Assembly: GCF_015667935.1 (NCBI RefSeq)
Contig: NZ_JADPET010000002.1
Location: forward strand, 1-64,000
Length of the DNA: 64,000 bases
Origin: Clostridium sp. 1001270J_160509_D11
GTDB lineage: Bacteria; Bacillota; Clostridia; Peptostreptococcales; Peptostreptococcaceae
Direction of reading: 5' to 3'
Shown here: positions 3,805-45,502 of the stretch, in pieces
Position numbering within the stretch: position 1 is the stretch's first letter
Layout: the number at the start of each line of letters is the position of its first letter
Notes under the pieces: model-generated
What the model saw: the letters and a program-made list of their open reading frames with translations, nothing else
Database searches by the model: none
Told to the model about the DNA's origin: nothing
Program-made: the position numbers and the translations under genes

Positions 3805-4977
3805 ATGTTACTTGAGTTTTCCTGCAGCAATTTTAAGTCGATTAAGGAAAAGGTCACTTTTTCGGCTATTGCGACGGATGATAGCAAAAACGAGGAATTT
3901 TTAAGGAAGTTTGGCGATTTTAGGGTTTTGCATACGTCTGTGATTTATGGGCCAAATGGTTCGGGAAAGAGCAACCTTTTTAAGGCGATTGGATTTGTGA
4001 GGGATTTGGTGCTTAAAAGTTGTGAGAAAAAGGCTGGGGAGGTGTTGAAACAACCTCGTCACAAGATGGCATCTCAGGATGAAAAAAGCGAATTTAATAT
4101 ACAATTTATAATGGGCAATGTTAGATATGCTTATGGATTTGTGTTAAGAAACAATTTGGTGAGTGAGGAGTATTTATATTATTTTGCGCGTGAGCGCGAA
4201 GAAATTGTGAAAGTTTTTGAGAGAGAGGAAGGAGAAGTCTGTCTCGGTGAAAAATTTGAGGAAAATAAGGTGTTGTTGGAGATAACTAAAGACGAGCTTG
4301 GCGATAATAGGCTGTTGTTGTCTTGTATTGGAAATAAAAGTGGCATTTGTGAGATAAGTGATGCATTTTTGTTTTTTAAGTTACATCTTGTCATACATAA
4401 TATGGAGGTAAAAAGCGAAAGGGAAAACTGCATTAGGGCCATGATGGAAAATGAGGAGATGAGGAAGTTGATCATCTCTGTTTTTAACGAGTTGGACAGC
4501 GATATAAAGGATATTAGAGTTGAAGATGGGGACGAGGGGCCAAGGGTGAAAGTGGTTTACGATGAGTTTGAAACTGATTTGGCCTATGAGGAGTCGACGG
4601 GAATCAACAAATTGTTTGACCTCGTGCTCCCTATGGTGCAGAGTTTTGTAAATGGGAAGGTGATGATTGTGGACGAAATCGAGTTAAACCTTCACCGAAA
4701 TGTCTCTTATAAAATTATCAACTTATTCAACACCCATCTTCCGAACAACTCTGCCCAGCTTATTTTCACAAGCCACGATATAAGTCTGCTTAGCTTGAAT
4801 TTGTTTAGAAATGACCAGATTTGGTTTGCACAGCTGGGAAAAGATAGGGCGACTGAGTTGTATTCCCTTGTTGAGATTAAAAATATTAGAGCAGATGAAA
4901 ATATCGCCAAGGGGTATGTTATGGGAAGGTATGGAGCTGTTCCTATTTTTAAAAACAATGGCGGTGTTGTGAGATGA
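3805..4977 (+). CDS. AAA15-type (ABC/SMC-like) ATPase
   Basis: A 390-residue ATPase of the AAA_15/OLD-like group found in many defence systems. The N-terminus (SNFKSIKE) is the classic start of this group. Walker A is GPNGSGKS at residues 49-56, Walker B is VMIVDE with D290/E291, and the H-loop is TSHD with H324. There is no OLD-type Toprim nuclease domain fused to the C-terminus, so an effector must be supplied separately. The 3' end overlaps the next start codon by four bases (ATGA), indicating strict co-translation with the HEPN gene. Codon use becomes richer in G and C than in flanking genes, hinting at acquisition by transfer. The general ATPase call is firm; the defence role is inferred. 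Confidence 0.85.
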   Translation: MLLEFSCSNFKSIKEKVTFSAIATDDSKNEEFLRKFGDFRVLHTSVIYGPNGSGKSNLFKAIGFVRDLVLKSCEKKAGEVLKQPRHKMASQDEKSEFNIQFIMGNVRYAYGFVLRNNLVSEEYLYYFAREREEIVKVFEREEGEVCLGEKFEENKVLLEITKDELGDNRLLLSCIGNKSGICEISDAFLFFKLHLVIHNMEVKSERENCIRAMMENEEMRKLIISVFNELDSDIKDIRVEDGDEGPRVKVVYDEFETDLAYEESTGINKLFDLVLPMVQSFVNGKVMIVDEIELNLHRNVSYKIINLFNTHLPNNSAQLIFTSHDISLLSLNLFRNDQIWFAQLGKDRATELYSLVEIKNIRADENIAKGYVMGRYGAVPIFKNNGGVVR

Positions 4978-5693
4978 AGTCTGGTAAGCAGCGAAATTTA
5001 AATTTAACCCAAAGGAAGTCGGGGACAAGGGATAAAATCCAACCTGAAGTTGTGAAGTTTAGCTTAGATGAGATTAAAAAGCATTTTGAGGATAGCATCT
5101 CAGACATCGAGGAGCAGTTTAAGACGATTGACTTGTTGGAAAGCAAGGATAGGGAGAAAATAGACTATATCCTGCGCTCCCAAATTGTGTTTTTAGGTGG
5201 CTCGCTCGACTTTTATTTTCACGAAATTACTCAATTCGGCATAATGCAGATGTATGACGAAATATGGCAAGAGACAAAACCTTATAAAAATCTAAACATC
5301 AAGCTTGGGACGATTTTGGGCGTGTTAAAAGGAGAGAAGGACGACTCCTGGTTTATCGAGTTTATCAACTACGAATACAGCAAGATTTCGCTGATTTCTT
5401 ACGACTCGATTGAAAAGGCGATGAACATGATCGGGCTGCATATGTACCAAATTGCGAACAAAATCTACGGCGAGGAAATCGAGAGAAAGGAAAGAGTAAT
5501 CAAGCTGAAAGAAAGGATGAACCGCCTCTGCGAAAGACGAAACTGCATCGCCCACCAGTTTGATATGTTTCACGAAAATGCCGAGAAAAAGCCGATTCAT
5601 ATTAATACGGTGAGGGAGTTTATCGAGGATGCGAAGGAAATTGTTGATGTCGTTTATGAATTGATGCTGGAGCATGACGTCGTGAAGAGATAG
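4974..5693 (+). CDS. HEPN-domain protein (RiboL-PSP-like), probable RNase effector
   Basis: A 239-residue all-helical protein. Near the C-terminus, ERRNCIAHQ contains the R-x4-H motif of HEPN RNases (R189 to H194), in the RRNxIAH form typical of RiboL-PSP HEPN proteins. HEPN proteins in this setting usually cleave RNA and stop growth. No membrane segment is present. It overlaps the upstream ATPase gene by four bases. A pairing of ABC-like ATPase with HEPN nuclease resembles the logic of PrrC and RloC, where both parts are in one protein; here they are separate. The family call rests on the motif and helical pattern; RNase activity is inferred. Confidence 0.75.
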   Translation: MKSGKQRNLNLTQRKSGTRDKIQPEVVKFSLDEIKKHFEDSISDIEEQFKTIDLLESKDREKIDYILRSQIVFLGGSLDFYFHEITQFGIMQMYDEIWQETKPYKNLNIKLGTILGVLKGEKDDSWFIEFINYEYSKISLISYDSIEKAMNMIGLHMYQIANKIYGEEIERKERVIKLKERMNRLCERRNCIAHQFDMFHENAEKKPIHINTVREFIEDAKEIVDVVYELMLEHDVVKR

Positions 5694-5709
5694 TGTTGGT
5701 GTATTAATT

Positions 5710-5759
5710 GCATAATCGTGTTCAACCATTGGACATCAAATGGTTGAGTATGATTGTGC
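5710..5759. repeat. inverted repeat between convergent units
   Basis: GCATAATC (5710-5717) and TCAACCATT (5722-5730) pair with AATGGTTGA (5739-5747) and GATTGTGC (5752-5759), around an 8-nt loop. There is no T run on either strand, so it is not a standard terminator. It lies just after the HEPN gene and could stabilise the 3' end of its mRNA or mark an element border. Confidence 0.6.
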
Positions 5760-5825
5760 GAGTTTAAGGTTTAAGTAAGAAATATTAGAGCATTGTTATT
5801 CTATTTAACAAGTTTGTGATGAATA

Positions 5826-5927
5826 ACTTTATAAAAAATTAAAATCCCACCTAAGTTACTTATTATGGGGGCATGGTTACTTGTTGTAGAACCTTGTTTA
5901 CTTATTATAGCAACTGGGGTGGGGTTT
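5826..5927 (-). terminator. minus-strand terminator with a large repeat-filled loop
   Basis: Read on the minus strand, AAACCCCACC (5927-5918) pairs with GGTGGGATTT (5851-5842), followed by TTAATTTTTT. The 66-base loop is filled by three 21-base repeats. It would end the amidase transcript. Confidence 0.55.
5856..5918. repeat. three 21-bp tandem repeats
   Basis: TTACTTATTAT or a near copy recurs at 5856, 5877 and 5898, exactly 21 bases apart, with divergent 10-base linkers. On the minus strand this reads as an open frame of seven-residue units (AIISKQG, STTSNHA, PIISNLG), but a stop lies just upstream and no start codon is in frame. It may be a gene relic. Confidence 0.6.
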
Positions 5928-5957
5928 GTATTTTATAGAAAACATCTTGTGACGATT

Positions 5958-6734
5958 TTAACGATATTTTTTTACATATTTCGTACTTGCTGTGATGAAG
6001 TATCCTGATTTCAGCTTATACATATTTGTGTCGCTTCGTTTTATTAGGGAGTCGACTGTGAAGACTTCGCCAGTTTTTGCGACTCCGACGACGCTGGATG
6101 ATTTGAAGTCAGGGGTCTTGTGGTAGTTTACATCTTGGATGATTTTTATTAATTTTGGGATTGGTGTAGGAGCTGTGCAGTTTATTATATCGTCGACATT
6201 TATTTTGCCAGCTTTCAAATTCCAACAATCTAACTTAAATTGCACCATTTTGTCTGGATTTTTGACCATATATATTGGGCAAAGTTTGTATGATTTGCCG
6301 ACGACGTCGGTGTGAGTGATGATGTCTGTTTTACAATTTAGCCCTTTATATTGACAGAGCCACGCGCATAGATGGACCATGCTTTTGTAGGTTGCATCTG
6401 TGTAGTGATTGTCTGAACCTGTTGTGGCAACTTCGATTGCGATTGCGTACGAGTTTGCACTATTTGTCGCATAACATATTTCGTTTGTCGGAATAAGTTG
6501 ATAAATTGTGCCATCGAGGTCGATAACGTAATGCGATGAGGCGTAGATGTACTTGCCATTGACTTTGTAGCCATTTGCCACGACATTGTTGAAATATGAA
6601 ACAGTTTTTAGGCCCTCTACATCAGCTTTGCCAGTGTAGTGAATGGCGATTTTCTTGGCAGTTAGGGGAGTGCCCGGTCTGCCGAATTTGTTTTTCTTCT
6701 GCCATTTTTCAATGACAGTTGGCTTGTTTAACAT
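5958..6734 (-). CDS. N-acetylmuramoyl-L-alanine amidase (phage-type endolysin)
   Basis: A 258-residue peptidoglycan hydrolase. Residues about 20-165 are an Amidase_2 (PGRP-like) domain: KIAIHYTGKAD supplies the first zinc histidine, THTDVVGK the second, and SYKLCP the conserved K/C region near the active site. Residues about 195-258 form a bacterial SH3-like wall-binding domain. There is no signal peptide, as expected of an endolysin released with a holin or by lysis rather than by secretion. An AAAGGAGG site precedes the ATG. It is the last gene of the minus-strand replication module. No holin was found, although the YvrJ protein upstream has one hydrophobic segment. Confidence 0.9.
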   Translation of the reverse strand: MLNKPTVIEKWQKKNKFGRPGTPLTAKKIAIHYTGKADVEGLKTVSYFNNVVANGYKVNGKYIYASSHYVIDLDGTIYQLIPTNEICYATNSANSYAIAIEVATTGSDNHYTDATYKSMVHLCAWLCQYKGLNCKTDIITHTDVVGKSYKLCPIYMVKNPDKMVQFKLDCWNLKAGKINVDDIINCTAPTPIPKLIKIIQDVNYHKTPDFKSSSVVGVAKTGEVFTVDSLIKRSDTNMYKLKSGYFITASTKYVKKYR

Positions 6735-6825
6735 GGTATTCCTCCTTTAAAATTGTAGATAATTAACGATAAATCCTTTGCTAAAATAGCAGAGGATTAT
6801 TGAGTTAAAATGATAAATTAATTAT

Positions 6826-7431
6826 TTAAAATGGAAGATCATCATCAGTACAAGCTGTCAAGTTAGAAGTCGGGTCGTCGCTTAGTTCTGAATTATTAGT
6901 TGGATTATTAGAGGTAGTGCCAGAATTAGTGCTTGATGAAGTCTGACTATTTGTGACATCGCTGCTAGTAGATTGACTATTAGATTGATTGCCAATTTCG
7001 CTATCAGTTCCACCGATATTAGTATTTGCAACAGTAGTCTCGCTATCAGTTATATCACCACCACTATTTGTGACAGCAGTTTCGCTACTATTTATTTCGT
7101 TGCCACCATTATTCTTATTAGGCGTATTGAGTTTCATAATAGAATTTGCTACGACTTTGGCGTAGTTTCTGTTGTTGCCTGTTGAGTCGATGAAGCGGTC
7201 GATGTGGAGACTGCCGCTGATTGCAACGAGGCAACCTTTTTCGATATAAGTTGCGCAGTATTCCGCCTTTTTGCCCCAAATTTCAACAGGGATAAAGTCG
7301 GTTACGGCTTGGTTATCTTTTCTGTAGCTGCGGTCGATTGCTATTGTGAATTTTGAGATTGCAGTGCCTGTGTTGATAAATCTAAGGTCCGGGTCGGCTG
7401 TAAGTCTTCCGATTAAAGTAACTGAATTCAT
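6826..7431 (-). CDS. ssb: single-stranded DNA-binding protein (element-encoded)
   Basis: A 201-residue SSB. Residues 1-105 form the OB fold (MNSVTLIGRLTADPDLRF, then DFIPVEIWGKKAEYCATYIEKG). A long Ser/Thr/Asn/Gly-rich linker follows, and the C-terminus ends in the canonical acidic tip DDDLPF, which recruits replication and repair partners. The linker is unusually long and repetitive (many SNTS/ETTV blocks), unlike compact chromosomal SSBs. AAGGAGG precedes the ATG. Its placement between a DnaB-like helicase and an endolysin argues that it serves an element and is not the host housekeeping copy. Confidence 0.92.
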   Translation of the reverse strand: MNSVTLIGRLTADPDLRFINTGTAISKFTIAIDRSYRKDNQAVTDFIPVEIWGKKAEYCATYIEKGCLVAISGSLHIDRFIDSTGNNRNYAKVVANSIMKLNTPNKNNGGNEINSSETAVTNSGGDITDSETTVANTNIGGTDSEIGNQSNSQSTSSDVTNSQTSSSTNSGTTSNNPTNNSELSDDPTSNLTACTDDDLPF

Positions 7432-7459
7432 AATTAAACCTCCTTAAGGTATATAAATT

Positions 7460-8770
7460 TTAGCAAAAGCTGTCTTGTGTCCAGACAGGGGTATATCCAA
7501 AGTCTTTTTTAAGTTCGTATTCGCCTTGGGTGTAAAATCGCTTGCGGCTGTTGTCGAATGATAGTGAGAGTTTGTGTTTTACTATGCCGGTAATTCTGTT
7601 TTTTAGTATGTCTATGTAGGTTACTGACTTTTCGGTATCGCGGTATGCTTTGAATACGTAGTCGGCTAAGTTTGGGATTTCGCTGGCACCTGATATTTCA
7701 AACACGTGTGATTCTCTGTTCATAAGCGAGCTTTTGTTTGAATGGGCGACTAGGATTATGACGAGGTCGTATTTTTTAGCTAGGTTTTTCAATGCTTTGA
7801 CGGCGATTATTTGTTTTTCGTATTTGTCCGAACCGCTACATTCTAGAGTCATCAAGTTGTCGAGGATAAAAAATTTTACGTCTTTTCTTATGGCGAGATA
7901 TTCGATAACATTCGCCAAATTTATTTCGTCGGCTCTGGCGTCTTTTGAATATATAAAAAGTCGCTCTTTTGTCCAGTTTCTGATTAAATCAATCCCTTCT
8001 TGTGTGACTTTGGTGTATTTGCCAAAGCTGTTTGTGTAAGAGCCAAGATGTTCTGGATTTGCAACAGTTCGACAAAACCACTCGATCATCATCTGGTAAG
8101 TCAGCTCGCCGGAGTAGAGAAAGGAATTAAACCCGAGGCTTAGCGCATTTGCCAAGACTTGATTTAAAAAAGTACTCTTTCCGGAGCCGGGATTACCTGT
8201 CAAAATCGACAAAGTTCCGTAATTTAGCCCACTTCCAGTCGCCGAATCGAGACTCATAAACCCAGTCTGGATGGCGCCTGTGTTTTGGTTTTGGAGCGAA
8301 ATTGTGGATGCATCGATAAAGAGATTTTCGATGTCGCCATTGTCCAAAATCGTCGACTTCAAATCATCAGACACTTTTATAAGCTCGGAACTCTCCATAG
8401 TCTGGATAGTTTTTGTCGTTTGTGAAAGAAGTTCTTTGATGCTGCGTTTTACGGCGTACTCCTTGACAATTTTCATATAGAAGATGATGTTGTCGGTGGA
8501 TGCGACGATTGTCATCAAATCTGCCAAATATGACATACCGCCGATTTTTTCAAGCATACCTTCTTTTTTAAGCTCGTTGCCCAAGGTTATCGGGTCGATT
8601 TGGCTGTTGGAGTCGGACAGCTTTTTCATACATTTGTATATTATTGTGTGTTTTGGGACGAAGAAGTCGTCGGCACAAAAGTTGACGTCGTTGCCATGAG
8701 TTATGCTCTCAGGCTCGATTAAAATTGCGCCGAGAATATTTTGTTCGGCCTCAATATTGTAAAGTCCCAT
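7460..8770 (-). CDS. DnaB-like replicative helicase
   Basis: A 436-residue hexameric DNA helicase. The N-terminal domain (EAEQNILGAILIEPESI) is the DnaB helical collar. The RecA-like C-terminal domain has Walker A GNPGSGKST around residues 192-200, a Walker B-like FFILDNL, and VAHSNKSS in the position of the DnaB sensor histidine. It should unwind DNA at the fork of the element. A GGGGGAG site precedes the ATG. It lies 45 bases after the replisome organiser gene and 28 bases before ssb, consistent with one operon. Confidence 0.9.
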   Translation of the reverse strand: MGLYNIEAEQNILGAILIEPESITHGNDVNFCADDFFVPKHTIIYKCMKKLSDSNSQIDPITLGNELKKEGMLEKIGGMSYLADLMTIVASTDNIIFYMKIVKEYAVKRSIKELLSQTTKTIQTMESSELIKVSDDLKSTILDNGDIENLFIDASTISLQNQNTGAIQTGFMSLDSATGSGLNYGTLSILTGNPGSGKSTFLNQVLANALSLGFNSFLYSGELTYQMMIEWFCRTVANPEHLGSYTNSFGKYTKVTQEGIDLIRNWTKERLFIYSKDARADEINLANVIEYLAIRKDVKFFILDNLMTLECSGSDKYEKQIIAVKALKNLAKKYDLVIILVAHSNKSSLMNRESHVFEISGASEIPNLADYVFKAYRDTEKSVTYIDILKNRITGIVKHKLSLSFDNSRKRFYTQGEYELKKDFGYTPVWTQDSFC

Positions 8771-8815
8771 AAAATCTCCCCCTTATTTCAAATTTAAAAC
8801 ATAATATTGCAGAGC

Positions 8816-9763
8816 TTATATCCTAGTAAAATTGCCGTTTTCGTAGTTTTTGCGAGCGAGAATCTCGTCGTATTGTTTTCTCAAATCCCACGGACTAAGC
8901 ACCAAACTTGACCAAAATTCATCATCGAGATAAATCCACTTGATAAGCTCCGTAACCTCCCTGAAATCTCGATTGTCCTCATGTAAAATAAGCTCAAATG
9001 CACTTATCCAGTTTTTAAGGTCTGGAGTTTTGAAGTTGTGATTGTTTTTCTTGATCAGCTTGAACAAAAGCTGAGCAAGTAAAAACTCGGCACTAGATTC
9101 ATCGAATGTTTTTAATTTATTTGATTTATTTAATTGATCAATTATCTGTTCGTCATTTTCATCATGGGGATAAGGCATTTTGTCAAGGGGGTTGTGACTA
9201 AAATCTATGACGTTTGGATTTTTATCTAGGGGGTATTGACTGAAATCGACGATGTGTTTATCCATGTCAATAGGGTCGTGATTAAAATCATTACCTTCAT
9301 TATCTAAATCACTATCTTCGGGATTAAAATTATCGATTGCGTGATTTATATCATTGAGACTGTAGTTAAAATCATTAGGGTCGGGAATTGAATCGATTGA
9401 GTTTTGGGCTGAGGTTGCATTTTTCTTATCAGTTTGGAAACGGATTAGATGGACATAATTTTCGCCCAAAGCGTAATAAGAATAATTTCCGCCATAATGA
9501 AGAAGTTTTTTCTTTAAAATTTGTGAGTCGCACATTTTTTTCAGCCTTTTATAGACGGCGCTTTTTCCGATAGACATAATGCAGATATCTTCCACAATCT
9601 TTTCGTAAAAGACCCAATAATATTTTTCCTCATCAACAATAGCACAGCGCATATTGCCAGAGTCCTTAAAATCGACAAACCATCTTAATATAACAAGATC
9701 TATCAAATCTAGATTAAATTCGCACGCGGCCTTTTGGGAAAAGCCCATAATAGTATACTTCAT
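8816..9763 (-). CDS. phage-type replisome organiser (winged helix, DnaD-like)
   Basis: A 315-residue probable replication initiator or helicase-loading adaptor. Residues 1-100 form a winged-helix domain (LIDLVILRWFVDFKDSGNM, YYWVFYEKIVEDI, AVYKRLKKMCDSQILKKK) of the type seen in phage replisome organisers. The middle, about 125-215, is a low-complexity acidic D/N/P/H-rich spacer with repeated DFxxxPxD units. The C-terminal 90 residues are helical and end in a basic tail, the usual place for DNA or helicase contact. It immediately precedes the helicase gene. The exact family is uncertain; the role follows from the winged helix plus context. Confidence 0.75.
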   Translation of the reverse strand: MKYTIMGFSQKAACEFNLDLIDLVILRWFVDFKDSGNMRCAIVDEEKYYWVFYEKIVEDICIMSIGKSAVYKRLKKMCDSQILKKKLLHYGGNYSYYALGENYVHLIRFQTDKKNATSAQNSIDSIPDPNDFNYSLNDINHAIDNFNPEDSDLDNEGNDFNHDPIDMDKHIVDFSQYPLDKNPNVIDFSHNPLDKMPYPHDENDEQIIDQLNKSNKLKTFDESSAEFLLAQLLFKLIKKNNHNFKTPDLKNWISAFELILHEDNRDFREVTELIKWIYLDDEFWSSLVLSPWDLRKQYDEILARKNYENGNFTRI

Positions 9764-9796
9764 AATTTCACTCTCCTAAAAATTTATATAAATAGA

Positions 9797-9820
9797 CCTC
9801 CCCCACAAGAGCAGGGGAGG
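9797..9820 (-). terminator. hairpin between the YvrJ and replication genes
   Basis: CCTCCCC (9797-9803) pairs with GGGGAGG (9814-9820). On the minus strand it is followed by TCTATTTATATAAATTTTT. It may attenuate transcription from the DUF2922/YvrJ genes into the replication genes. Confidence 0.6.
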
Positions 9821-9857
9821 CACAGGCACTCGGGGAAGTAAGCGCCCGTTTGATAGC

Positions 9858-10010
9858 TTATTTTGACTCTTTTAAACTGATGATATTAGTTGAAAGCTCA
9901 TTTATACTACTTGTTAAGGTTTCCAGCTTGGCCTCGAGCCTTATCAAAAGATAAATCGACACAGCCACCGGAAATCCGACGTTCGCAATCAATGTTTCAA
10001 TAATCTCCAT
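9858..10010 (-). CDS. YvrJ family microprotein
   Basis: A 50-residue protein starting MEIIETLIANVGFPVAVSIY. This matches the YvrJ family pattern: a short hydrophobic helix with the invariant NVGFPVAVSIYLL core, then RLE and an amphipathic coiled coil (KLETLTSSINELSTNI). One membrane segment spans residues about 5-23. The function of YvrJ proteins is unknown; their size and shape resemble small holin-like or membrane adaptor peptides. It has a GGTGG site and sits directly downstream of a DUF2922 gene, a pairing known across Firmicutes. Confidence 0.8.
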   Translation of the reverse strand: MEIIETLIANVGFPVAVSIYLLIRLEAKLETLTSSINELSTNIISLKESK

Positions 10011-12687: not shown

Positions 12688-12734
12688 CTTAGCCGTATTT
12701 AAGGTAAATTAACAAAATGAAAGGGGGACAAAAA

Positions 12735-15700
12735 ATGGACAAGATTTTTAAAAGAACAGTAAGTATTCTTGTTGCACTTGTTATGACGATTGTTATGATA
12801 CCTGCTAATGCTTTTGTATCCTTTGCTGATGAAGGTGGAAATATAAAATCGGGCAAAGTAACAGCTAATGCAGCAGAGAATTTAACTGCAGAAGGGGAAA
12901 TTACTGAAGCTAAGTATCAAAAAGTAAATAGTATAGATACACAATCCGATTATTTAATTGTTTATGAAAATGGTGGTACTTCAGTAGCATTAAATAATAA
13001 AGGTAATAGTAGTGATAATGGTACGAGTGTAACTATAACAGATGCTAAAGATGGATATTATAACATTACTAATGTTGATAGTAGTATGTTATGGAGTTTT
13101 AATAAAACAGTAACATCTAATAATACCACTAGCGAAGTTAAGATAACAAATAAAGCATCTAATCAGAATTTATCATTTAGTTCGAGAGATATTGATATTG
13201 GCAGTTCAGATAATACATTATATGTAGCGAATAGGGATGACAAATTTTCTATATATAATAAAGTTGATTATTATATAGATTATTCTTACTATTATTTAAA
13301 TTATAATAGTAAATTTATGGCAAGTAGAAATGGACAACAACCTCCTTCAGCAGGTAATTTAACAATATATAAACAAATATCACAACAAACTAAAAAAGTA
13401 ACTTATACATTAACTAAACCAACTAAATTAACTTATAGAGTAGGTCAAAGCCAAAATTTAAACGGGGGTAAAATAACAGTAAAGGATGAAAGTGGAAATC
13501 TTTTAAAAGAAGTAGATTTAAGTGATGAAGATGTTCAAATTACTGGATTTACTAGTGAGGCTGCAGGTACACCAGAAATAAAAGTTACATATGAAGGAAA
13601 AACTTTTAATTATTATATTACAGTAACTAACTCAACTGTAACTCCAGTTGATCCAAGTATAGATGATGATGCTCAATATCCTAATCAAGGTTCAGTAAAA
13701 GTTAATAAACAAGTTACTGAGGCAACAAAGGAAAATTTCGAAAATACAGGCCTTGCTAGATTAGAGCTTGGAGTAAAAGGTGTTCCAACTAAAAAAGGCG
13801 TAGATGCTGTATTAGTATTTGATAGATCAGCTAGTATGAATAAAACAGTATCTAATGGTAAGACTAGAACTCAAGTTGCAAAAGAAGCATCTATTAAATT
13901 TATAGAAAAAGTATTAGAAGATAATGCGGATGGAAGTTTTTCCAACAATCGTATTGCAATAGTTACTTTTAATGCTAATGCAACACGTTTAGTGGCATTA
14001 AGTGATAATGAGGCTGAACTTATAAAGGCTATAGAAGGTTTGAGTAATACAGTAAGTTCAGGAGATACCAATTATGATGCTGGTGTAATAGAAGCATCTA
14101 ATATTTTAAATAGTGCTAGAAACCAAAGTGGTTATAATAGAGAGCAAGCAGTATTGTTTTTTAGTGATGGGGCACCTCAAAATGGATATAATGATGTGAA
14201 CAAACCTACTAACAGTGATGGATATAATCATGATGCAACATATAATGAGTTAAAAAGTGCAGGTGCTTTTTTAAACAAACATAAATACTCTACACAAGTC
14301 AAAAATCTTCCAGCAACTATGTATACAGTTGGATTTGGATTGGCTGATTATAGTGGATTTACTAAATCTCAAATGGAAGAAATATTAAGAGATTATATGG
14401 CAACATCATCAGAAACTTTCTATTCTGTTCAAAGTGCAGGTGAATTAACAGATGCATTTGAAAAAATAGGAACAGCTATCAAAAAAGCCGGTACTAACGC
14501 GGTTGTAACAGATAAAATGGGTCCTGAATTTAATTTACAAATGGGTAAACAATACCCTTCAGGTGTAAAAAATGCAGCATTCCCAGAAGATTTTGATACA
14601 ACGATAAAAGTATCAAGCTATAAAGTTGACTCAGAAGGTAATAGAACAGGAAATCCAACCAATATAGAAACAGTTACATTTAGTAATGATGGTAAGACTG
14701 CAACTTCTGATAAATTACCAGACAAGAGTAATATTATAGAAAACAATAAAATTAAGGCTAAAAATTTTACTTATGATTTAAGTACAGAAACATTTACTTG
14801 GGATATAGGTGATATAACTCAAGATGAAATAGTATTAAGTTATCCAATATACTTAGAAAATTCGATGGAAGGAACTAGAGGAGCTGGAAACTACGATACT
14901 AATGAATCTGCGATTCTAAATTATACTAATATAAATGATAAGCCATGGCATAAAGACTTTGAGGTACCATCATTACCATGGAAGAGTGCAAATGTTAAAA
15001 TTGAATATTATTTAGTTAATGAAAATGGACAACCTATAAATTCAGCAGGAACAGTAGTTCCTTGGGAATATAGAGTTACATTATCTAATGAAACAAGACC
15101 GTTAGCAAAAGGTTCAAATTTAAATATAAAAGCTACAGATAATATACCTAAGGGATATGTTCTTCACAATAAAGATGCTTTCTATAAAATAGATAAAGTA
15201 GGCACAGAAAATGTAGTTAGAACATATTCAGAAAATGATAAGAGTACTCAAGTAACGGGAACTTCACCATATACAACATCATCTGTTGCATTTGGTGTAA
15301 TGACTACTACTGATTTAACTCCAGATACAATAGTTCTTGACTATGGTAAACCAGTTACATTTAATGTATTAGATAATGATGGATTAAAGGATATTACATT
15401 GAATGGTGTTGTTGAGCAAGAAGGAACTGCATTAGGTGTTAACTTAAATTCAGGAGTTTCTACTACACCTAATAATAAGTTTACTAATGAAGCAACTGAT
15501 GATTATGGAAAACTTGAAAAGAAAAATAATAATGGCGATGTAACTTATACATTATCTAAATATATGGATGGAATAGATAAATTCTATTATGAAGTTACAG
15601 GTAAAACTACTGGTCAAGATGGAAAAGAAGAAGATTTCTATAAATATTCATCAATAAGTGTAATACCAGCAACATCTGTTTATTATGAAGATAACTTCTC

Positions 15701-16949
15701 TAGTGGAACTACAAATAAGGATAAAACTACTAATGGAATAGTCTACAATGGTAAGGCATGGGAAAAAGTAACTAATGGAACAACAGATGGTAAAGAGGAA
15801 CAAGATGCTGAACAAGGTATAAATACTACTTATGGTCAAGATTCTTCATATGCAAACGACACTACATTTAGTTATGGTTCTGCACACGTAGTAACTGCCG
15901 AAAAAGGAACACCAGCAAGTGCGAAGTTTACATTTAAAGGTACCGGTTTTGAAATAATAGGTAGAACTGATAATAATACAGGAATGATGACTGTTAAGGT
16001 GTATGATTTAAAATCTAATACATTAGTTAGAAATATACCATGTAATACTGTTTATGAAGAACAAGATGGTGTATTATATCAAATACCTGTAATATCTGTT
16101 GATGGATTATCTTATGGACAATATAAAGTTATTATTACTGTAACTGGAACAACTGACCAAGATGGTATGAATCATAGCAGTACAGTATATATAGATGGTG
16201 TACGTATATTTAATCCAATAGATCCAAATGGCACAGATGCTACAGAGGCTAATAATAAATATAAAGAAGACAACGAAGCAAATCAAGTTGTTTATGAAAT
16301 AAGAAACTTATTATTAGACAAGAATAGTTTAACTGGTGGTACAGATGCTAATGGTATAGTATATGTTGATACTGAAGGAAATATAACAAATCCTACTACT
16401 TATAAAGATCTTGGTCCTAATAATGAAGTATACCTTAAAAAAGGTAACTCTATAGGATTTAAATTAAGATCTTCTCAACCAGCAGCTATAAAAATAGGAT
16501 TAAAAACTCCTAATGGTGAAGCCGGTGAAGTGACTGTAGGTTCTAGCAAAGATTCATCTGGAGATCCAATAGTATTAAATACAGCTACATCAATGTATTA
16601 TGATGTAACAAATAAAATTGTATTTGATGATAACAATGAAGCTTATGTGGTAATTACAAATACTGGTGATAATGACGCGATAGTTTCTTTAACAAAAATT
16701 AAATTTACATTTGAAAGTGAACCAGCAATTTCTCCACAATTAGTAGTTAATCAAAATGATGCAAAATATATATCAAATATGACATTGAGTAGAAATGGTG
16801 TAGAAGTTGATGATAACAATAAGGATAATACATCAGATGATAAATCAAACAGTGACACAACAGATAAACCAAATAATGATACAACAAATAATAATACAAG
16901 TGTGATAAATAAAGTTGTTAATTTCTTTAAAAATTTATTTAAAAAATAA
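12735..16949 (+). CDS. giant secreted von Willebrand factor A protein
   Basis: A 1404-residue extracellular protein. Residues 1-32 are a Sec signal peptide (ILVALVMTIVMIP, then AFVSFADE). About 200-300 hold an Ig-like domain (YTLTKPTKLTYRVGQSQNLN). A VWA domain spans about 355-610: the MIDAS motif D-R-S-A-S is at D363, TNYDAG supplies the MIDAS threonine, and FFSDGAP sits near residue 478. Beta-sandwich modules of surface adhesins follow. The low-complexity D/N/S/T-rich end is capped by VINKVVNFFKNLFKK, an amphipathic basic helix; there is no LPxTG motif or membrane anchor, so attachment is unclear. The ATG at 12735 follows AAGGGGG; the ATG at 12717 has no site. It lies 41 bases ahead of the precursor-peptide gene with no terminator between. 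Confidence 0.88.
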   Translation: MDKIFKRTVSILVALVMTIVMIPANAFVSFADEGGNIKSGKVTANAAENLTAEGEITEAKYQKVNSIDTQSDYLIVYENGGTSVALNNKGNSSDNGTSVTITDAKDGYYNITNVDSSMLWSFNKTVTSNNTTSEVKITNKASNQNLSFSSRDIDIGSSDNTLYVANRDDKFSIYNKVDYYIDYSYYYLNYNSKFMASRNGQQPPSAGNLTIYKQISQQTKKVTYTLTKPTKLTYRVGQSQNLNGGKITVKDESGNLLKEVDLSDEDVQITGFTSEAAGTPEIKVTYEGKTFNYYITVTNSTVTPVDPSIDDDAQYPNQGSVKVNKQVTEATKENFENTGLARLELGVKGVPTKKGVDAVLVFDRSASMNKTVSNGKTRTQVAKEASIKFIEKVLEDNADGSFSNNRIAIVTFNANATRLVALSDNEAELIKAIEGLSNTVSSGDTNYDAGVIEASNILNSARNQSGYNREQAVLFFSDGAPQNGYNDVNKPTNSDGYNHDATYNELKSAGAFLNKHKYSTQVKNLPATMYTVGFGLADYSGFTKSQMEEILRDYMATSSETFYSVQSAGELTDAFEKIGTAIKKAGTNAVVTDKMGPEFNLQMGKQYPSGVKNAAFPEDFDTTIKVSSYKVDSEGNRTGNPTNIETVTFSNDGKTATSDKLPDKSNIIENNKIKAKNFTYDLSTETFTWDIGDITQDEIVLSYPIYLENSMEGTRGAGNYDTNESAILNYTNINDKPWHKDFEVPSLPWKSANVKIEYYLVNENGQPINSAGTVVPWEYRVTLSNETRPLAKGSNLNIKATDNIPKGYVLHNKDAFYKIDKVGTENVVRTYSENDKSTQVTGTSPYTTSSVAFGVMTTTDLTPDTIVLDYGKPVTFNVLDNDGLKDITLNGVVEQEGTALGVNLNSGVSTTPNNKFTNEATDDYGKLEKKNNNGDVTYTLSKYMDGIDKFYYEVTGKTTGQDGKEEDFYKYSSISVIPATSVYYEDNFSSGTTNKDKTTNGIVYNGKAWEKVTNGTTDGKEEQDAEQGINTTYGQDSSYANDTTFSYGSAHVVTAEKGTPASAKFTFKGTGFEIIGRTDNNTGMMTVKVYDLKSNTLVRNIPCNTVYEEQDGVLYQIPVISVDGLSYGQYKVIITVTGTTDQDGMNHSSTVYIDGVRIFNPIDPNGTDATEANNKYKEDNEANQVVYEIRNLLLDKNSLTGGTDANGIVYVDTEGNITNPTTYKDLGPNNEVYLKKGNSIGFKLRSSQPAAIKIGLKTPNGEAGEVTVGSSKDSSGDPIVLNTATSMYYDVTNKIVFDDNNEAYVVITNTGDNDAIVSLTKIKFTFESEPAISPQLVVNQNDAKYISNMTLSRNGVEVDDNNKDNTSDDKSNSDTTDKPNNDTTNNNTSVINKVVNFFKNLFKK

Positions 16950-39967: not shown

Positions 39968-40012
39968 TTAACTAGCTTAAATACAAAATCAAATAAAATT
40001 GGCAATACTCTA

Positions 40013-40054
40013 AAGCCAAATTTAGATAAAAATCAATCTAAATTTGGCTTTTTT
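40013..40054 (+). terminator. rho-independent terminator
   Basis: AAGCCAAATTTAGAT (40013-40027), 8-nt loop, ATCTAAATTTGGCTT (40036-40050), then T residues. Perfect 15-bp stem separating the pseudoamidase unit from the methyltransferase. Confidence 0.95.
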
Positions 40055-40154
40055 ACATGCAGAAATCAAAATATAACTATATAATTATTTACAGGACTAA
40101 CTTTTAGTTTAAGTAGTAGTGATTTCGTTTAAATTTATTTGATGGGGGGCGACT

Positions 40155-42098
40155 ATGGAAGAAAGTTTTGAAGTTTCAAAGAGGTATGAGAATAATTTAG
40201 ATATTAAAAAGAGAAAAAATCAGGGGATTTATTATACGCCATACGTTGTTGTGGAGTATATATTAGAGCAGACAATACAAAAGCACGATGTAGTAGATGA
40301 GCCGTATCCAAAGGTGCTCGATATGTGTTGTGGCTGTGGCAATTTCTTAATAAGTGCATATGAAATACTTCATAAAAAGTTTTTGGAAAATATAGATAAT
40401 TTAAGGATTAAATATGGAAGAGGTTTTATTTCATCAGAAGATATAAGTCTGCATATTATAAAAAACTGCATTTTTGCAGTAGATACAGACGAAGATGCAT
40501 TATTTATATTTAAAAGACAAATTATGAATATTTTAAAAGATGAGCTTAGAGAAATTTATAAAGATAAATTTCTAATTAGTGAGGACGAGCTAGACGAGAT
40601 TTTGTTTGATAAATACGAGAAAAATCTCAATATACTTTGTGCTGACAGCTTAAAAACAGACTTATGCGAAGTATTTTCTATAAAAAAGTTTGACTATATT
40701 GTCGGAAACCCGCCATACATTGGTCAAAAGCTTTTAGACAACGAATATAAAAAATTTTTATACAAGGAATTTGGTGATGTATATAAAAACAAAGGGGATC
40801 TTTATTTTTGCTTTTATAAAAGAATACTGGATTTATTAAAAGAAGATGGAAAATCAGGGATTATTACACCGAGGTATTTTATGCAGAGTCCATCTGGAAA
40901 GTATCTTAGAAAATACATGATAGACAATGCCAAGATAGACAATATAGTTGACTTTCTAGGTGCGAATTTATTCTCAAACCTAGGAATTGCAAGTTGTATC
41001 GTAGTGTTTGAACATAAAAACAAAAAAGATAAATACATACAATACTATAAAATAATAGATGAAAATATCAATATAAAGAAAATAGACAACTTAGGATTAT
41101 ATTTAAAACAAGATAATTTTAAAAAAATCATGGTAAATATCGAGTCACTTGGGGAAGATTGGTTAATGCTAGACCAGGTAGAATTCGAATTTTATAACAA
41201 AATCCAAAATAAGTGTCAATATTTTTTAGATGAAATAGGTGAGAGTTTTCAGGGGATAATCACAGGTTGCGACAAGGCATTTGTCGTAAATAAAGACGAT
41301 AAAAATATAAGTAAAATAGACAAAAATCTACTAAAAAACTGGATTAAAAATACAAATGTCGAAAAGTACATAATTGATAATTCAAATTATAAATTGATAT
41401 ATTCAAACGACATAAAAACAGAACAGGACCATCCATTTGTTATAGATAATTACTTTATGCCATATAAACAAAAGCTCCAAAATAGGAGAGAATGTATACG
41501 AAATAGCCGAAAATGGTACGAACTTCAGTGGGGAAGAGAAAAATCTCTATTTGAGCAGACAAAGATAATGTATCCATATAAGTCTAGAAACAACAGATTT
41601 GCGATAGACTTTGATAATAGCTATGGAAGTGCAGATGTGTATTCATTTTTTATAAAAGAAAAATACAAAGATGAATTTTCATATGAATACTTAGTCGGGC
41701 TATTAAATTCAAAAGTATACGATAAATATTTTAAGATAATAGGTAAAGAAATGGGCAAAAAAATATTCGATTATTATCCGAATAGAGTTATGAAATTAAA
41801 GATTTTTAAAGATGAAAATTACAAGAAAATAGAGTCATTATCAAAAGAAATAATATTCCTCTCAAGAAAAAAACTATCTATAATAAATGAATTAGAAAGT
41901 ACTTCAAAAAAATTAGCAATTTCAAGCGATTTAACTAAAATAACAACTTGTGAAAACGTTATGGAAATACAAGACAAAAATATTTCGCTCTTAAAAGAAA
42001 AACATTACCTTGAAAATAAAATCGATTTCATAGAAAATATAATAGAGGAAATAATTAAAAAATCTTTAAATTTAAATCATGACACTAATTTGGATTAA
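40155..42098 (+). CDS. camA: CamA-like orphan adenine-specific DNA methyltransferase
   Basis: A 647-residue gamma-type N6-adenine methyltransferase (Eco57I/TaqI-like). The SAM site is VLDMCCGCGNF around D56, the catalytic motif is GNPPYIG (N185-Y188), and the C-terminal half carries a TaqI_C-like target-recognition domain (FQGIITGCDKAF, RKWYELQWGREK, YPNRVMKLKIF). From memory, long stretches (opening SKxYENxLD, QGIYYTP, VGNPPYIG, KADLYFCFYK-like, SADVYSFFIKE) match CamA of C. difficile, which methylates CAAAAA and affects sporulation. It is longer than the 577-residue CamA owing to a helical C-terminal extension. No restriction subunit is nearby. Patatin and PTS genes follow. Confidence 0.87.
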   Translation: MEESFEVSKRYENNLDIKKRKNQGIYYTPYVVVEYILEQTIQKHDVVDEPYPKVLDMCCGCGNFLISAYEILHKKFLENIDNLRIKYGRGFISSEDISLHIIKNCIFAVDTDEDALFIFKRQIMNILKDELREIYKDKFLISEDELDEILFDKYEKNLNILCADSLKTDLCEVFSIKKFDYIVGNPPYIGQKLLDNEYKKFLYKEFGDVYKNKGDLYFCFYKRILDLLKEDGKSGIITPRYFMQSPSGKYLRKYMIDNAKIDNIVDFLGANLFSNLGIASCIVVFEHKNKKDKYIQYYKIIDENINIKKIDNLGLYLKQDNFKKIMVNIESLGEDWLMLDQVEFEFYNKIQNKCQYFLDEIGESFQGIITGCDKAFVVNKDDKNISKIDKNLLKNWIKNTNVEKYIIDNSNYKLIYSNDIKTEQDHPFVIDNYFMPYKQKLQNRRECIRNSRKWYELQWGREKSLFEQTKIMYPYKSRNNRFAIDFDNSYGSADVYSFFIKEKYKDEFSYEYLVGLLNSKVYDKYFKIIGKEMGKKIFDYYPNRVMKLKIFKDENYKKIESLSKEIIFLSRKKLSIINELESTSKKLAISSDLTKITTCENVMEIQDKNISLLKEKHYLENKIDFIENIIEEIIKKSLNLNHDTNLD

Positions 42099-42121: not shown

Positions 42122-43354
42122 ATGAAAGGTTTAGTATTAGAAGGGGGAGGCACTAAAGGTGCTTACCAATTAGGGGCTTATAAAGCTTTAAAAGAATTAG
42201 GTGTCGAGTTCGACGGTGTAGTTGGAACTTCAATTGGGGCATTAAATGCAGCATTTATAGTCCAGGGGGACTATGAAATAATGAAAGACATCTGGTTAAA
42301 TAGGGATTATAAAAGTTTTATGGACATAGAAGAAGACTTCTATGAAAAATATAAAAATGTGGAGTTTAAGGCAAAAGATATAAATGTAGTCATAGATCTT
42401 ATGAATAAAGCCAGAAAAAACGAAGGAATAGATATAACTCCTCTTAAAAATTTACTAAAAGAAAATATAGACGAAGAAAAAATAAGAAATTCATCAAAAG
42501 ATTTTGGATTAGTAACAGTATACTTAGACAAAAAAATCATCCCACAACACTTGATGAAAGAGGACATACCGCAGGGGAAATTGGTAGATTATTTAATCGC
42601 AAGTTCGAGCTTACCTATATTTCAATTAGATAAATTTGAAGATAAACGTTATCTAGATGGCTTTTTATCAGATAATACGCCAGTTGGGTTATTGGCGAAT
42701 AAAGGATATAATGATATAATAGTAATTAGATTATCGAATGATGCCGCAGGAGATAAAAGTTTGCAAAAATATGTAGATTTAAATCTAACAGTGATAAAAC
42801 CTTCGATGGTTTTGGGAGGTTCTCTAAACAAGGACAAAGATCATATGGAGACATTGTTCAAACTTGGATATATGGATACAATGAAAGTATTTAAAAGATA
42901 CGATGGGGTGAAGTATTTCTTTAATGCAGATTTCATATATGACGAAGAGACATGCTTTAATTTGATAAGTAACATAGATATAAAAACGATAGAATACATA
43001 TGCAAGATCTTAAAAATAAGGAGAAAACCAAGCCTAAGAGTTTTATTAGAAGAAATCATACCACAACTTGGGGATATGTTTCATTTGGAAAAGGAATTTA
43101 CATATAAAGATATTTTTTACAGTATATATGAAAGAAAACTTGAGGAAAATAATATAGACGTTTTGAATTTATACGATTTTTCAAAGGTTATAGACTCAGT
43201 CAATTCACAAATTGACTCAATTAATTTCGATTATGAAAATAATGAAAATAAATCCATTATTTTGTTAAATAAAAAAGAAAAAAATGAAAAGGCGATAACA
43301 AATAAACTACTAAACGATTTTAAAAATCAAAGTTTAAGAAAAATGCCTATATAA
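42122..43354 (+). CDS. patatin-like phospholipase
   Basis: A 410-residue cytosolic lipid acyl hydrolase of the RssA type. The oxyanion hole is GGGTKGAYQLGA, the nucleophile Ser is in GTSIGALNAAF, and the dyad Asp is in YLDGFLSDNTPV. The C-terminal 150 residues are a helical extension without a recognised domain. It starts 23 bases after the methyltransferase stop with a GGTGAT site, which suggests co-transcription. Confidence 0.9.
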   Translation: MKGLVLEGGGTKGAYQLGAYKALKELGVEFDGVVGTSIGALNAAFIVQGDYEIMKDIWLNRDYKSFMDIEEDFYEKYKNVEFKAKDINVVIDLMNKARKNEGIDITPLKNLLKENIDEEKIRNSSKDFGLVTVYLDKKIIPQHLMKEDIPQGKLVDYLIASSSLPIFQLDKFEDKRYLDGFLSDNTPVGLLANKGYNDIIVIRLSNDAAGDKSLQKYVDLNLTVIKPSMVLGGSLNKDKDHMETLFKLGYMDTMKVFKRYDGVKYFFNADFIYDEETCFNLISNIDIKTIEYICKILKIRRKPSLRVLLEEIIPQLGDMFHLEKEFTYKDIFYSIYERKLEENNIDVLNLYDFSKVIDSVNSQIDSINFDYENNENKSIILLNKKEKNEKAITNKLLNDFKNQSLRKMPI

Positions 43355-43385: not shown

Positions 43386-43646
43386 ATGGAAAAGACAGTA
43401 GTAATAAAAAATGCAACAGGATTACATGCTAGACCAGCAGGGATGTTCGTTAAAAAAGCATCTGAATTCACTTCAACAGTAGAAGTATTAGCTAAAGGAA
43501 AAACTGTAAATGCTAAATCAATCATGGGAATAATGAGCTTAGGTTTAGGTCAAGGTGAAGAAATAGTTGTTAAAGCTGAAGGTGCAGATGATGCAGCAGC
43601 AGTTGACGCATTAGTAGAATTAATCGAAAGCGGATTTGGTGAATAA
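43386..43646 (+). CDS. ptsH: phosphocarrier protein HPr
   Basis: An 86-residue PTS phosphocarrier. H14 in NATGLHARPAG takes phosphate from Enzyme I, and S45 in AKSIMGIMSLG is the regulatory site for HPr kinase. Length and sequence are standard. It starts 31 bases after the patatin gene with TTAGGAGG ahead. Its own terminator separates it from ptsI, so the two are partly uncoupled. Confidence 0.97.
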   Translation: MEKTVVIKNATGLHARPAGMFVKKASEFTSTVEVLAKGKTVNAKSIMGIMSLGLGQGEEIVVKAEGADDAAAVDALVELIESGFGE

Positions 43647-43792: not shown

Positions 43793-45502
43793 ATGTTTAA
43801 AGGAACAGCAGCATCACCAGGTATAGTACTTGGGAAAGCGTTAGTATTAGAGCATAATGAATTAGTCATAGAAAAGAAATCGATATCAGACGTAGAAACA
43901 GAAATAGCTAGATTAAACGAGGCAGTAGCTATATCAAAAACTGAACTTGAAAAAGTAAGAGATAAAGCAAAAGTTGAATTAGGTGAAGAAGAGGCACAAA
44001 TATTTGAGTCACACTTATTAGTTTTAGAAGATCCTGAACTACTAGGCTCTACAATGGACAAAGTGAAAACTGAAAATGTCAATGCAGACTTTGCATTAAA
44101 CGAAATAAAAGAGATGTTCGTTGGAATGTTTGAAGCTATGGACAACGAATATATGAGAGAGAGAGCGGCTGACATAAAAGACGTTACAAACAGAATATTA
44201 AGACACTTACTAGGTGTAAAAATAGTAGACTTAGCTGCATTAGAAGATGAAGTAGTTTTAGTTGCACACGACTTAACTCCATCAGATACAGCTACAATGG
44301 ACAAAAAGAAAGTATTAGGATTCTTAACTGATATCGGTGGTAGAACTTCTCATACAGCTATAATGGCAAGAACTTTAGAAGTTGCTGCAGTAGTTGGACT
44401 AACAGATGCTACACAAAAAATAAAAGACGGGGACTTTGTTGTATTTAACGGAGATACTGGAGAAGTAATAGTAAATCCAGACGAAGAAACAATAGCTAAA
44501 TACTCACAAATGAAAAAAGAATTCGAAGATTATAAAAAATCATTAGAATTATTAAAAGGACAACCATCTGTTACAACTGACGGAAAACATGTTGAATTAG
44601 CAGGAAACATAGGAACTCCAAATGACGTAGATGGTTTAATTAAAAACGACGCTGAAGGTGTTGGACTTTATAGAACAGAATTCTTATATATGGACAGAGT
44701 AGACTTCCCAACAGAAGACGAACAATACGAAGCTTATAAAGCAGTACTTGAAGGAATGAGCGGAAAACCAGTTGTAATAAGAACTTTAGATATAGGTGGA
44801 GATAAAAAACTTGACTACTTAGAAATGGACGAAGAAATGAATCCATTCTTAGGATACAGAGCAATCAGACTTTGTCTAGATAGAAAAGAAATATTCACAA
44901 CTCAATTAAGAGCTTTATATAGAGCGAGTGTTCATGGAAAATTAAGAATAATGTTCCCAATGATATCTTCATTAGAAGAATTATTACAAGCAAAAGCAGT
45001 ATGTGAAGAAGTAAAAGAAGCACTAGATAAAGAAAACATAGCTTATTCAAAAGATATAGAAGTTGGTATGATGATAGAAGTGCCATCAGCAGCAGTAATA
45101 TCAGACGTACTTGCAAAACACGTGGACTTTTTCTCAATAGGAACAAATGACTTAATCCAATATACTTGTGCAGTAGACAGAATGAACCAAAAAATAAGCT
45201 ACTTATATAACCAATTCAATCCAGCAGTATTAAGATTAATAAAAATGGTTATAGAAAATGCACACAAAGAAGGTAAATGGGCAGGAATGTGTGGAGAAGC
45301 AGCAGGAGATCAAAGAATGATACCAATATTATTAGGATTTGGTCTTGATGAATTCTCAATGAGTCCAATCTCAATATTACCAGCTAGAAAATTAATAAAC
45401 TCTGTGAGTCAAGCCGACATGAAATCATTCTCAGAAAAAGTGTTAGAACTTGGAACGGCACAAGAAATAGAAGCATTTATAGCAGAAACTTTTAAACATT
45501 AA
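43793..45502 (+). CDS. ptsI: PTS Enzyme I
   Basis: A 569-residue phosphotransferase that moves phosphate from PEP to HPr. The N-terminal domain has the active H187 in GGRTSHTAIMART. The C-terminal PEP-binding barrel has GLYRTEFLYMDR, RTLDIGGDK, and FFSIGTNDLIQY; a C-terminal CGEAAGD supplies the catalytic Cys. TAGGAGG precedes the ATG. It is full length and closes the unit begun by the methyltransferase or ptsH. Confidence 0.97.
   Translation: MFKGTAASPGIVLGKALVLEHNELVIEKKSISDVETEIARLNEAVAISKTELEKVRDKAKVELGEEEAQIFESHLLVLEDPELLGSTMDKVKTENVNADFALNEIKEMFVGMFEAMDNEYMRERAADIKDVTNRILRHLLGVKIVDLAALEDEVVLVAHDLTPSDTATMDKKKVLGFLTDIGGRTSHTAIMARTLEVAAVVGLTDATQKIKDGDFVVFNGDTGEVIVNPDEETIAKYSQMKKEFEDYKKSLELLKGQPSVTTDGKHVELAGNIGTPNDVDGLIKNDAEGVGLYRTEFLYMDRVDFPTEDEQYEAYKAVLEGMSGKPVVIRTLDIGGDKKLDYLEMDEEMNPFLGYRAIRLCLDRKEIFTTQLRALYRASVHGKLRIMFPMISSLEELLQAKAVCEEVKEALDKENIAYSKDIEVGMMIEVPSAAVISDVLAKHVDFFSIGTNDLIQYTCAVDRMNQKISYLYNQFNPAVLRLIKMVIENAHKEGKWAGMCGEAAGDQRMIPILLGFGLDEFSMSPISILPARKLINSVSQADMKSFSEKVLELGTAQEIEAFIAETFKH

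Follow-up and report, generated by a model that had tools for sequence, protein, structure and literature searches.

A predicted CamA orthologue in Intestinibacter and the occurrence of CamA-type DNA adenine methyltransferases among Clostridia

The analysed window, a stretch of 64,000 nucleotides from a gut commensal of the genus Intestinibacter (family Peptostreptococcaceae; not C. difficile), harbours a gene which, judged by the predicted fold of its product, its base contacts and its locus, is an orthologue of camA, the gene for the DNA adenine methyltransferase CamA (CD2758) of C. difficile, the discovery of which is reportedly owed to a paper of 2020. The gene was most probably inherited vertically, and its product very likely marks CAAAAA or CAAAAAR throughout the genome, with possible effects at some promoters. 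Three aspects go beyond this identification: camA is distributed across the family, in contradiction to a published claim, the spoIIE promoter of Intestinibacter lacks the Me3 site, and a sister group of the gene is linked to the sigma-F operon.

Gene, fold and locus

The intact open reading frame at 40155-42098 of the plus strand starts with ATG and encodes 647 amino acids, as given in the first-pass annotation. Based on the phmmer search, the structural model, the mapped contacts and the dN/dS values it is predicted to encode a gamma-class DNA adenine-N6 methyltransferase acting on the last A of CAAAAA. A GGGGGG ribosome-binding stretch (40144-40149, plus strand) is located 5 bp upstream of the start codon. 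The cwlD-like amidase gene is the upstream neighbour, and a hairpin followed by a T run (40012-40056, plus strand; -19.3 kcal/mol, z -8.8, no equally stable structure among 200 shuffled sequences according to RNA folding) terminates the preceding unit, so that the camA transcript probably starts on its own. Downstream and on the same strand, camA is followed after 23 bp by a gene for a patatin-like phospholipase (42122-43354; Pfam PF01734) and after further 31 bp by ptsH encoding HPr (43386-43646), with ptsI encoding enzyme I next to it (43793-45502; TIGR01417). The short distances suggest that camA, the patatin gene and ptsH may be co-transcribed.

The deduced protein shares 51% identity with CamA of C. 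difficile (PDB 7LNI, 7LT5 and 7RFK), which was also the top match of a phmmer search against the PDB (E 5e-185, residues 2-573), M.BseCI being the next family at 3e-27. An AlphaFold model of the protein (pLDDT 90.3) was aligned by VIA-align with 568 of the 568 resolved residues of CamA (7rfk) at a Z score of 43.1 and an rmsd of 2.7, followed by BrxX and M.BseCI as the next families (Z 28), and Foldseek gave a concordant result. Motif I (CCGCGN, residues 58-63), in which S62 of CamA is replaced by C, and the catalytic motif IV NPPY (residues 185-188; 40707-40718, plus strand), which is invariant in 22 of 22 orthologues, were both detected. The closest proteins are encoded by a metagenome-assembled genome (84% identity), I. 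bartlettii N19 (74%) and I. bartlettii DSM 16795 (68%).

The additional length of the protein is not explained by the extra C-terminus of about 60 residues proposed in the first-pass annotation. Instead, the alignment revealed two insertions and a short tail. The first insertion (residues 128-150, 23 amino acids; 40536-40604, plus strand) is located in the catalytic half, is predicted to be helical, with model helices at residues 113-134 and 143-157, and does not occur in C. difficile CamA. The second one (residues 579-621, 43 amino acids; 41889-42017, plus strand) lies within the last helical hairpin and lengthens this antiparallel C-terminal structure (model helices 556-589 and 599-637), while the terminal helix aligns with the last helix of CamA. 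Both insertions were found in all Intestinibacter genomes, with a shorter second insertion in Terrisporobacter-type genomes, and within the genus they are conserved at 81-82% compared to 81-90% in the remainder of the protein. One might speculate that they serve contacts with other proteins.

Matches to the Eco57I, MmeI and BREX PglX models, which mostly represent restriction or defence enzymes, might point to an ordinary restriction-modification methyltransferase guarding the DNA against a cognate nuclease, or to a degenerate remnant of such an enzyme. However, a Pfam scan of 28 proteins of the window revealed no nuclease domain and the protein itself contains no extra domain, while the scores for BREX and Alw26I remain far below the curated cut-offs. 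The identification as BREX PglX was rejected (75.5 bits versus the curated threshold of 500, and no BREX genes nearby): BrxX/PglX shares with the window protein the catalytic core and some of the recognition domain (Z 28), but is twice as long and belongs to a multi-gene defence system that is absent from this locus. Taking furthermore into account that the gene resides at a fixed position beside ptsHI throughout the family, unlike mobile restriction-modification genes, that its specific contacts match those found in the orphan enzyme CamA, and that strong purifying selection is evident from dN/dS values between about 0.10 and 0.13 in comparisons with three congeners, a role in restriction-modification or a degenerate state seems extremely unlikely. 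The first-pass annotation, an orphan adenine methyltransferase resembling CamA in a genome other than that of C. difficile, equipped with motif I and NPPY, without restriction partner nearby and set among patatin and PTS genes, is borne out.

Several features elsewhere in the window were also observed. Overlapping genes for an AAA_21/AbiEii-like ATPase and a RiboL-PSP-HEPN protein (3805-5693) possibly form a defence or toxin-antitoxin unit. The region 4000-10000 has a G+C content of 0.38-0.39, compared to about 0.30 around it, which suggests a recently acquired gene block, and a 1410-aa protein with VWA and Ig-like domains (12717-16949) resembles pilus tip adhesins.

Base-contacting residues and predicted target sequence

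The base contacts described for the CamA-DNA structure (PMC8187626) were mapped on the alignment. As proposed in the first-pass annotation, the target-recognition half was compared with that of CamA and found to be well conserved rather than of low identity. Thirteen of the 15 contacts are identical, the recognition domain itself comprising residues of about 340-566 (41172-41852, plus strand; TaqI_C domain). Residues Q366, I369, R445, Q458, W459 and R461 of the window protein correspond to Q346, I349, R425, Q438, W439 and R441 of CamA, and Y475, K476, S492, A493, I537 and Y541 to Y455, K456, S472, A473, I517 and Y521. The residues reading C1 to A4 (Q346, I349, R425, Q438, W439, R441, S472 and A473 in CamA numbering, which is used hereafter) and the wedge residues (K172, Y455, K456 and Y521) are all the same as in CamA and do not vary among the 22 orthologues of the family. 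The two altered contacts, H171Q and S514G, are both common in the family, H171 being replaced by Q in eight of the 22 orthologues; additionally, the phosphate contact K173 is replaced by L.

In 78 homologues that represent many clostridial orders, nearly all contact residues are likewise invariant, apart from H171, S514, I517, Y455F and, in Peptostreptococcus canis, Q438H; the conservation of Y455, K456, H171 and K172 is partly a result of selection where loci were fetched by peptide patterns including these residues. Homologue sets obtained by profile searches are free of this bias, and in such a set Q346, I349, R425, Q438, W439, R441, K456, S472, A473 and Y521 were invariant in 30 of 30 Clostridiaceae homologues. 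The contact set is diagnostic rather than a general feature of the fold, since M.BseCI, which targets ATCGAT and shares the gamma-class fold and NPPY (Z 27.7) at a structure-based identity of 24%, differs from CamA at 15 of 15 positions. The window enzyme is predicted to methylate CAAAAA. The frequency of this sequence in the window (141 observed versus 141 expected), which is neither enriched nor depleted, was discarded as an uninformative signal of selection.

The replacements H171Q, S514G and K173L together with S62C imply that the specificity could be shifted or relaxed, for example to CAAAAAR. Methylation (m6A) of CAAAAAR has been reported in the methylomes of many Clostridia, and was assigned to the cloned enzyme Awo_c14460 in Acetobacterium woodii (PMC6700114) and to the lone methyltransferase CP6013_1459 in C. 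pasteurianum (PMC5027557). Like CamA these are lone enzymes whose target adenine is position 6 of CAAAAA, and we infer that Awo_c14460 and CP6013_1459 belong to the CamA homologue family. The change S514G was found in 30 of 30 Clostridiaceae homologues, and the motif reported for this group is CAAAAAR, not CAAAAA; taken together with the replacement of H171 by Q in part of the family orthologues and the two insertions, S514G may argue for a CamA relative with an altered recognition motif. On the other hand, the residues reading C1 to A4 are invariant, the insertions lie away from the recognition domain or within the distal hairpin, and the conserved gene order together with the single copy (no second camA was found in the genome) favours an orthologue over a paralogue. 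An altered specificity is consequently considered rather unlikely, although it deserves more weight than a restriction enzyme.

According to the preferred reading as a CamA orthologue, double-stranded DNA would be bound in the cleft between the catalytic and the recognition domain, and the last A of CAAAAA (or CAAAAAR) would be flipped out and methylated at N6. CAAAAA would thereby be marked genome-wide, and the binding of regulators or of RNA polymerase at some promoters may vary with the methylation state. The independently obtained clostridial methylomes with m6A at CAAAAAR speak for this reading.

Distribution of camA in the family and the spoIIE promoter

CamA has been called “rare among other bacteria” in one paper (PMC8187626) and described as “specific to C. 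difficile” in another (PMC13395437), and the first-pass annotation likewise assumed a rare homologue. This does not hold: a protein profile (E 1e-60 or better) detected camA homologues in 59 of 71 Peptostreptococcaceae genomes, comprising 47 of the short CamA type, eight with an N-terminal extension (Tepidibacter and allies) and four of Peptostreptococcus. A homologue was furthermore found in 72 of 116 evenly sampled Clostridiaceae genomes, and in the GTDB collection a relative is encoded by no fewer than 237 stretches. The family-wide distribution contradicts the published claim of a C. difficile-specific enzyme.

The order camA-patatin-ptsH-ptsI is common to Intestinibacter, Asaccharospora, Romboutsia, Metaclostridioides, Terrisporobacter and four loci of the C. 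difficile clade (patatin synteny is based on loci L031-L053, L065, L087 and L090), and the comparison of gene order suggested in the first-pass annotation thus revealed a match with the camA locus of C. difficile. In Peptacetobacter and Peptostreptococcus ptsHI is located beside camA without the patatin gene. The shared order, which is found in most of the family, indicates a single locus that was inherited vertically.

Some homologues deviate from this pattern. In Terrisporobacter-type camA genes (L012, L015, L039, L040) no ATG, GTG or TTG codon was detected near the expected start, and translation likely begins at a rare codon, for example ATT or ATA. In Faecalimicrobium dakarense (L022, L090) camA is frameshifted into an open frame of 373 aa and a second piece, representing a natural loss. 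In homologues of 690-950 aa from Tepidibacter and Tissierellales relatives (L023-L026, L028-L030, L056, L057, L060, L063, L066) the N-terminus is extended by about 115-155 residues and some of the proteins also have a long C-terminal part, while the base contacts are the same. A gene for an Rrf2-family regulator (L043:9548-9946) adjoins camA in C. difficile but not in Intestinibacter.

In C. difficile the effect of CamA on sporulation is explained by a single methylation site, the CAAAAA Me3, which boosts spoIIE and is located beside a Spo0A box near -35 of the spoIIE promoter (PMC13395437). The CAAAAA sites of this promoter are located at -106, -86 (other strand) and -60 relative to the start codon, and Me3 was taken as the promoter-proximal site at -60. 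Of the 49 family genomes examined, 37 possess this site and 12 lack it, the latter including one genome (G032) in which the promoter was not alignable. The Me3 position reads TGACAAATT or TGACAAAAT instead of TGACAAAAA in each of the four Intestinibacter genomes, and the site was also lost in Terrisporobacter (g14) and in a second genus (g2). Two genomes lacking camA (G022 and G068; L159, L160) and one with a broken camA (G031; L153) possess the site. A Spo0A-box-like TGACAAA core, the element with which the CAAAAA of Me3 overlaps, is kept wherever the spoIIE promoter can be aligned; the conservation of Me3 may therefore largely be explained by the box, and its persistence where camA is missing implies that conservation of the site alone is no proof of selection for methylation.

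Intestinibacter encodes full-length SpoIIE and Spo0A and has retained CAAAAA at the positions matching -106 and -86 of C. difficile, which would be compatible with camA being kept as a C. difficile-like sporulation regulator via methylation of Me3. However, since Me3 is missing in Intestinibacter, unlike in C. difficile, the circuit cannot work unchanged there. Moreover, Peptacetobacter (g23, n=3) and Peptostreptococcus (g6, n=9), in which no Spo0A or SpoIIE was detected above the family cut-offs, retain camA in three of three and four of nine genomes, respectively, despite being non-sporulating. It hence seems very unlikely that the gene is retained for the regulation of spoIIE by Me3. Its presence in non-sporulating genera fits the observation that, in mice, CamA confers most of its fitness benefit independently of sporulation (PMC13395437). 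As a vertically inherited orthologue, the enzyme might nevertheless tune sporulation, a role suggested by analogy, and other stationary-phase traits in Intestinibacter without Me3 of spoIIE.

Sigma-F linkage in Clostridiaceae and significance of CamA orthologues

The Clostridiaceae homologues share about 38% identity and the same contact residues, including those reading the bases, but unlike the window gene they are located directly upstream of spoIIAA-spoIIAB-sigF (curated models TIGR02886, TIGR01925 and TIGR02885). The gene spoIIAA was detected in 72 of 72 genomes with a homologue versus 34 of 44 without; such a split has a chance of about 3e-5 under the assumption of independent genomes, which does not hold here. 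Among the 63 genomes in which the two genes share a contig, spoIIAA follows downstream on the same strand within 10 kb in 57 (median gap 438 bp), and at 15 to 28 kb in four more (sigma-F-linked loci: L084, L091, L096, L098-L101, L106, L107, L109, L110; genomes G095-G212; for example L101:9938-13573). In Tissierellia a homologue is located near the sigma-F operon, at 2.4 to 5.4 kb, in three loci. In several loci of Clostridium, the second gene upstream of the homologue likewise encodes an Rrf2-family regulator (L101:8261-8722).

The gap between homologue and spoIIAA was inspected in 11 loci. CAAAAA as a local target was rejected because it is missing in about half of them, simple patterns revealed no clear Spo0A box, and no known RNA element was detected in the gap of C. 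ragsdalei (Rfam, E 0.1). No mention of a sigma-F linkage of the methyltransferase was found in the literature searched, and a search for a spoIIAA-linked adenine methyltransferase returned just the C. difficile paper.

The activation of sigma-F is the step affected by CamA in C. difficile. We tentatively propose an ancient epigenetic module of Clostridia that is tied to the sigma-F checkpoint of sporulation and of which CamA represents the branch in Peptostreptococcaceae. The methyltransferase gene would still be sigma-F-linked in Clostridiaceae and some Tissierellia, whereas in the family of C. difficile it may have moved beside ptsHI and may have gained or lost promoter targets such as Me3 of spoIIE by lineage.

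CamA has been proposed as a narrow-spectrum drug target and called C. difficile-specific in papers up to 2026 (PMC8187626, PMC13395437). Because Intestinibacter, Romboutsia, Terrisporobacter and Peptacetobacter possess orthologues that read DNA with the same residues, an inhibitor of CamA could also hit gut commensals, and claims on the drug target and on sporulation that are premised on a CamA unique to C. difficile need to be revisited. Orthologues outside C. difficile could, in turn, allow harmless strains to be used as models, and the sigma-F linkage of the Clostridiaceae homologue offers a direct, testable hypothesis for the retention of this methylation among Clostridia.
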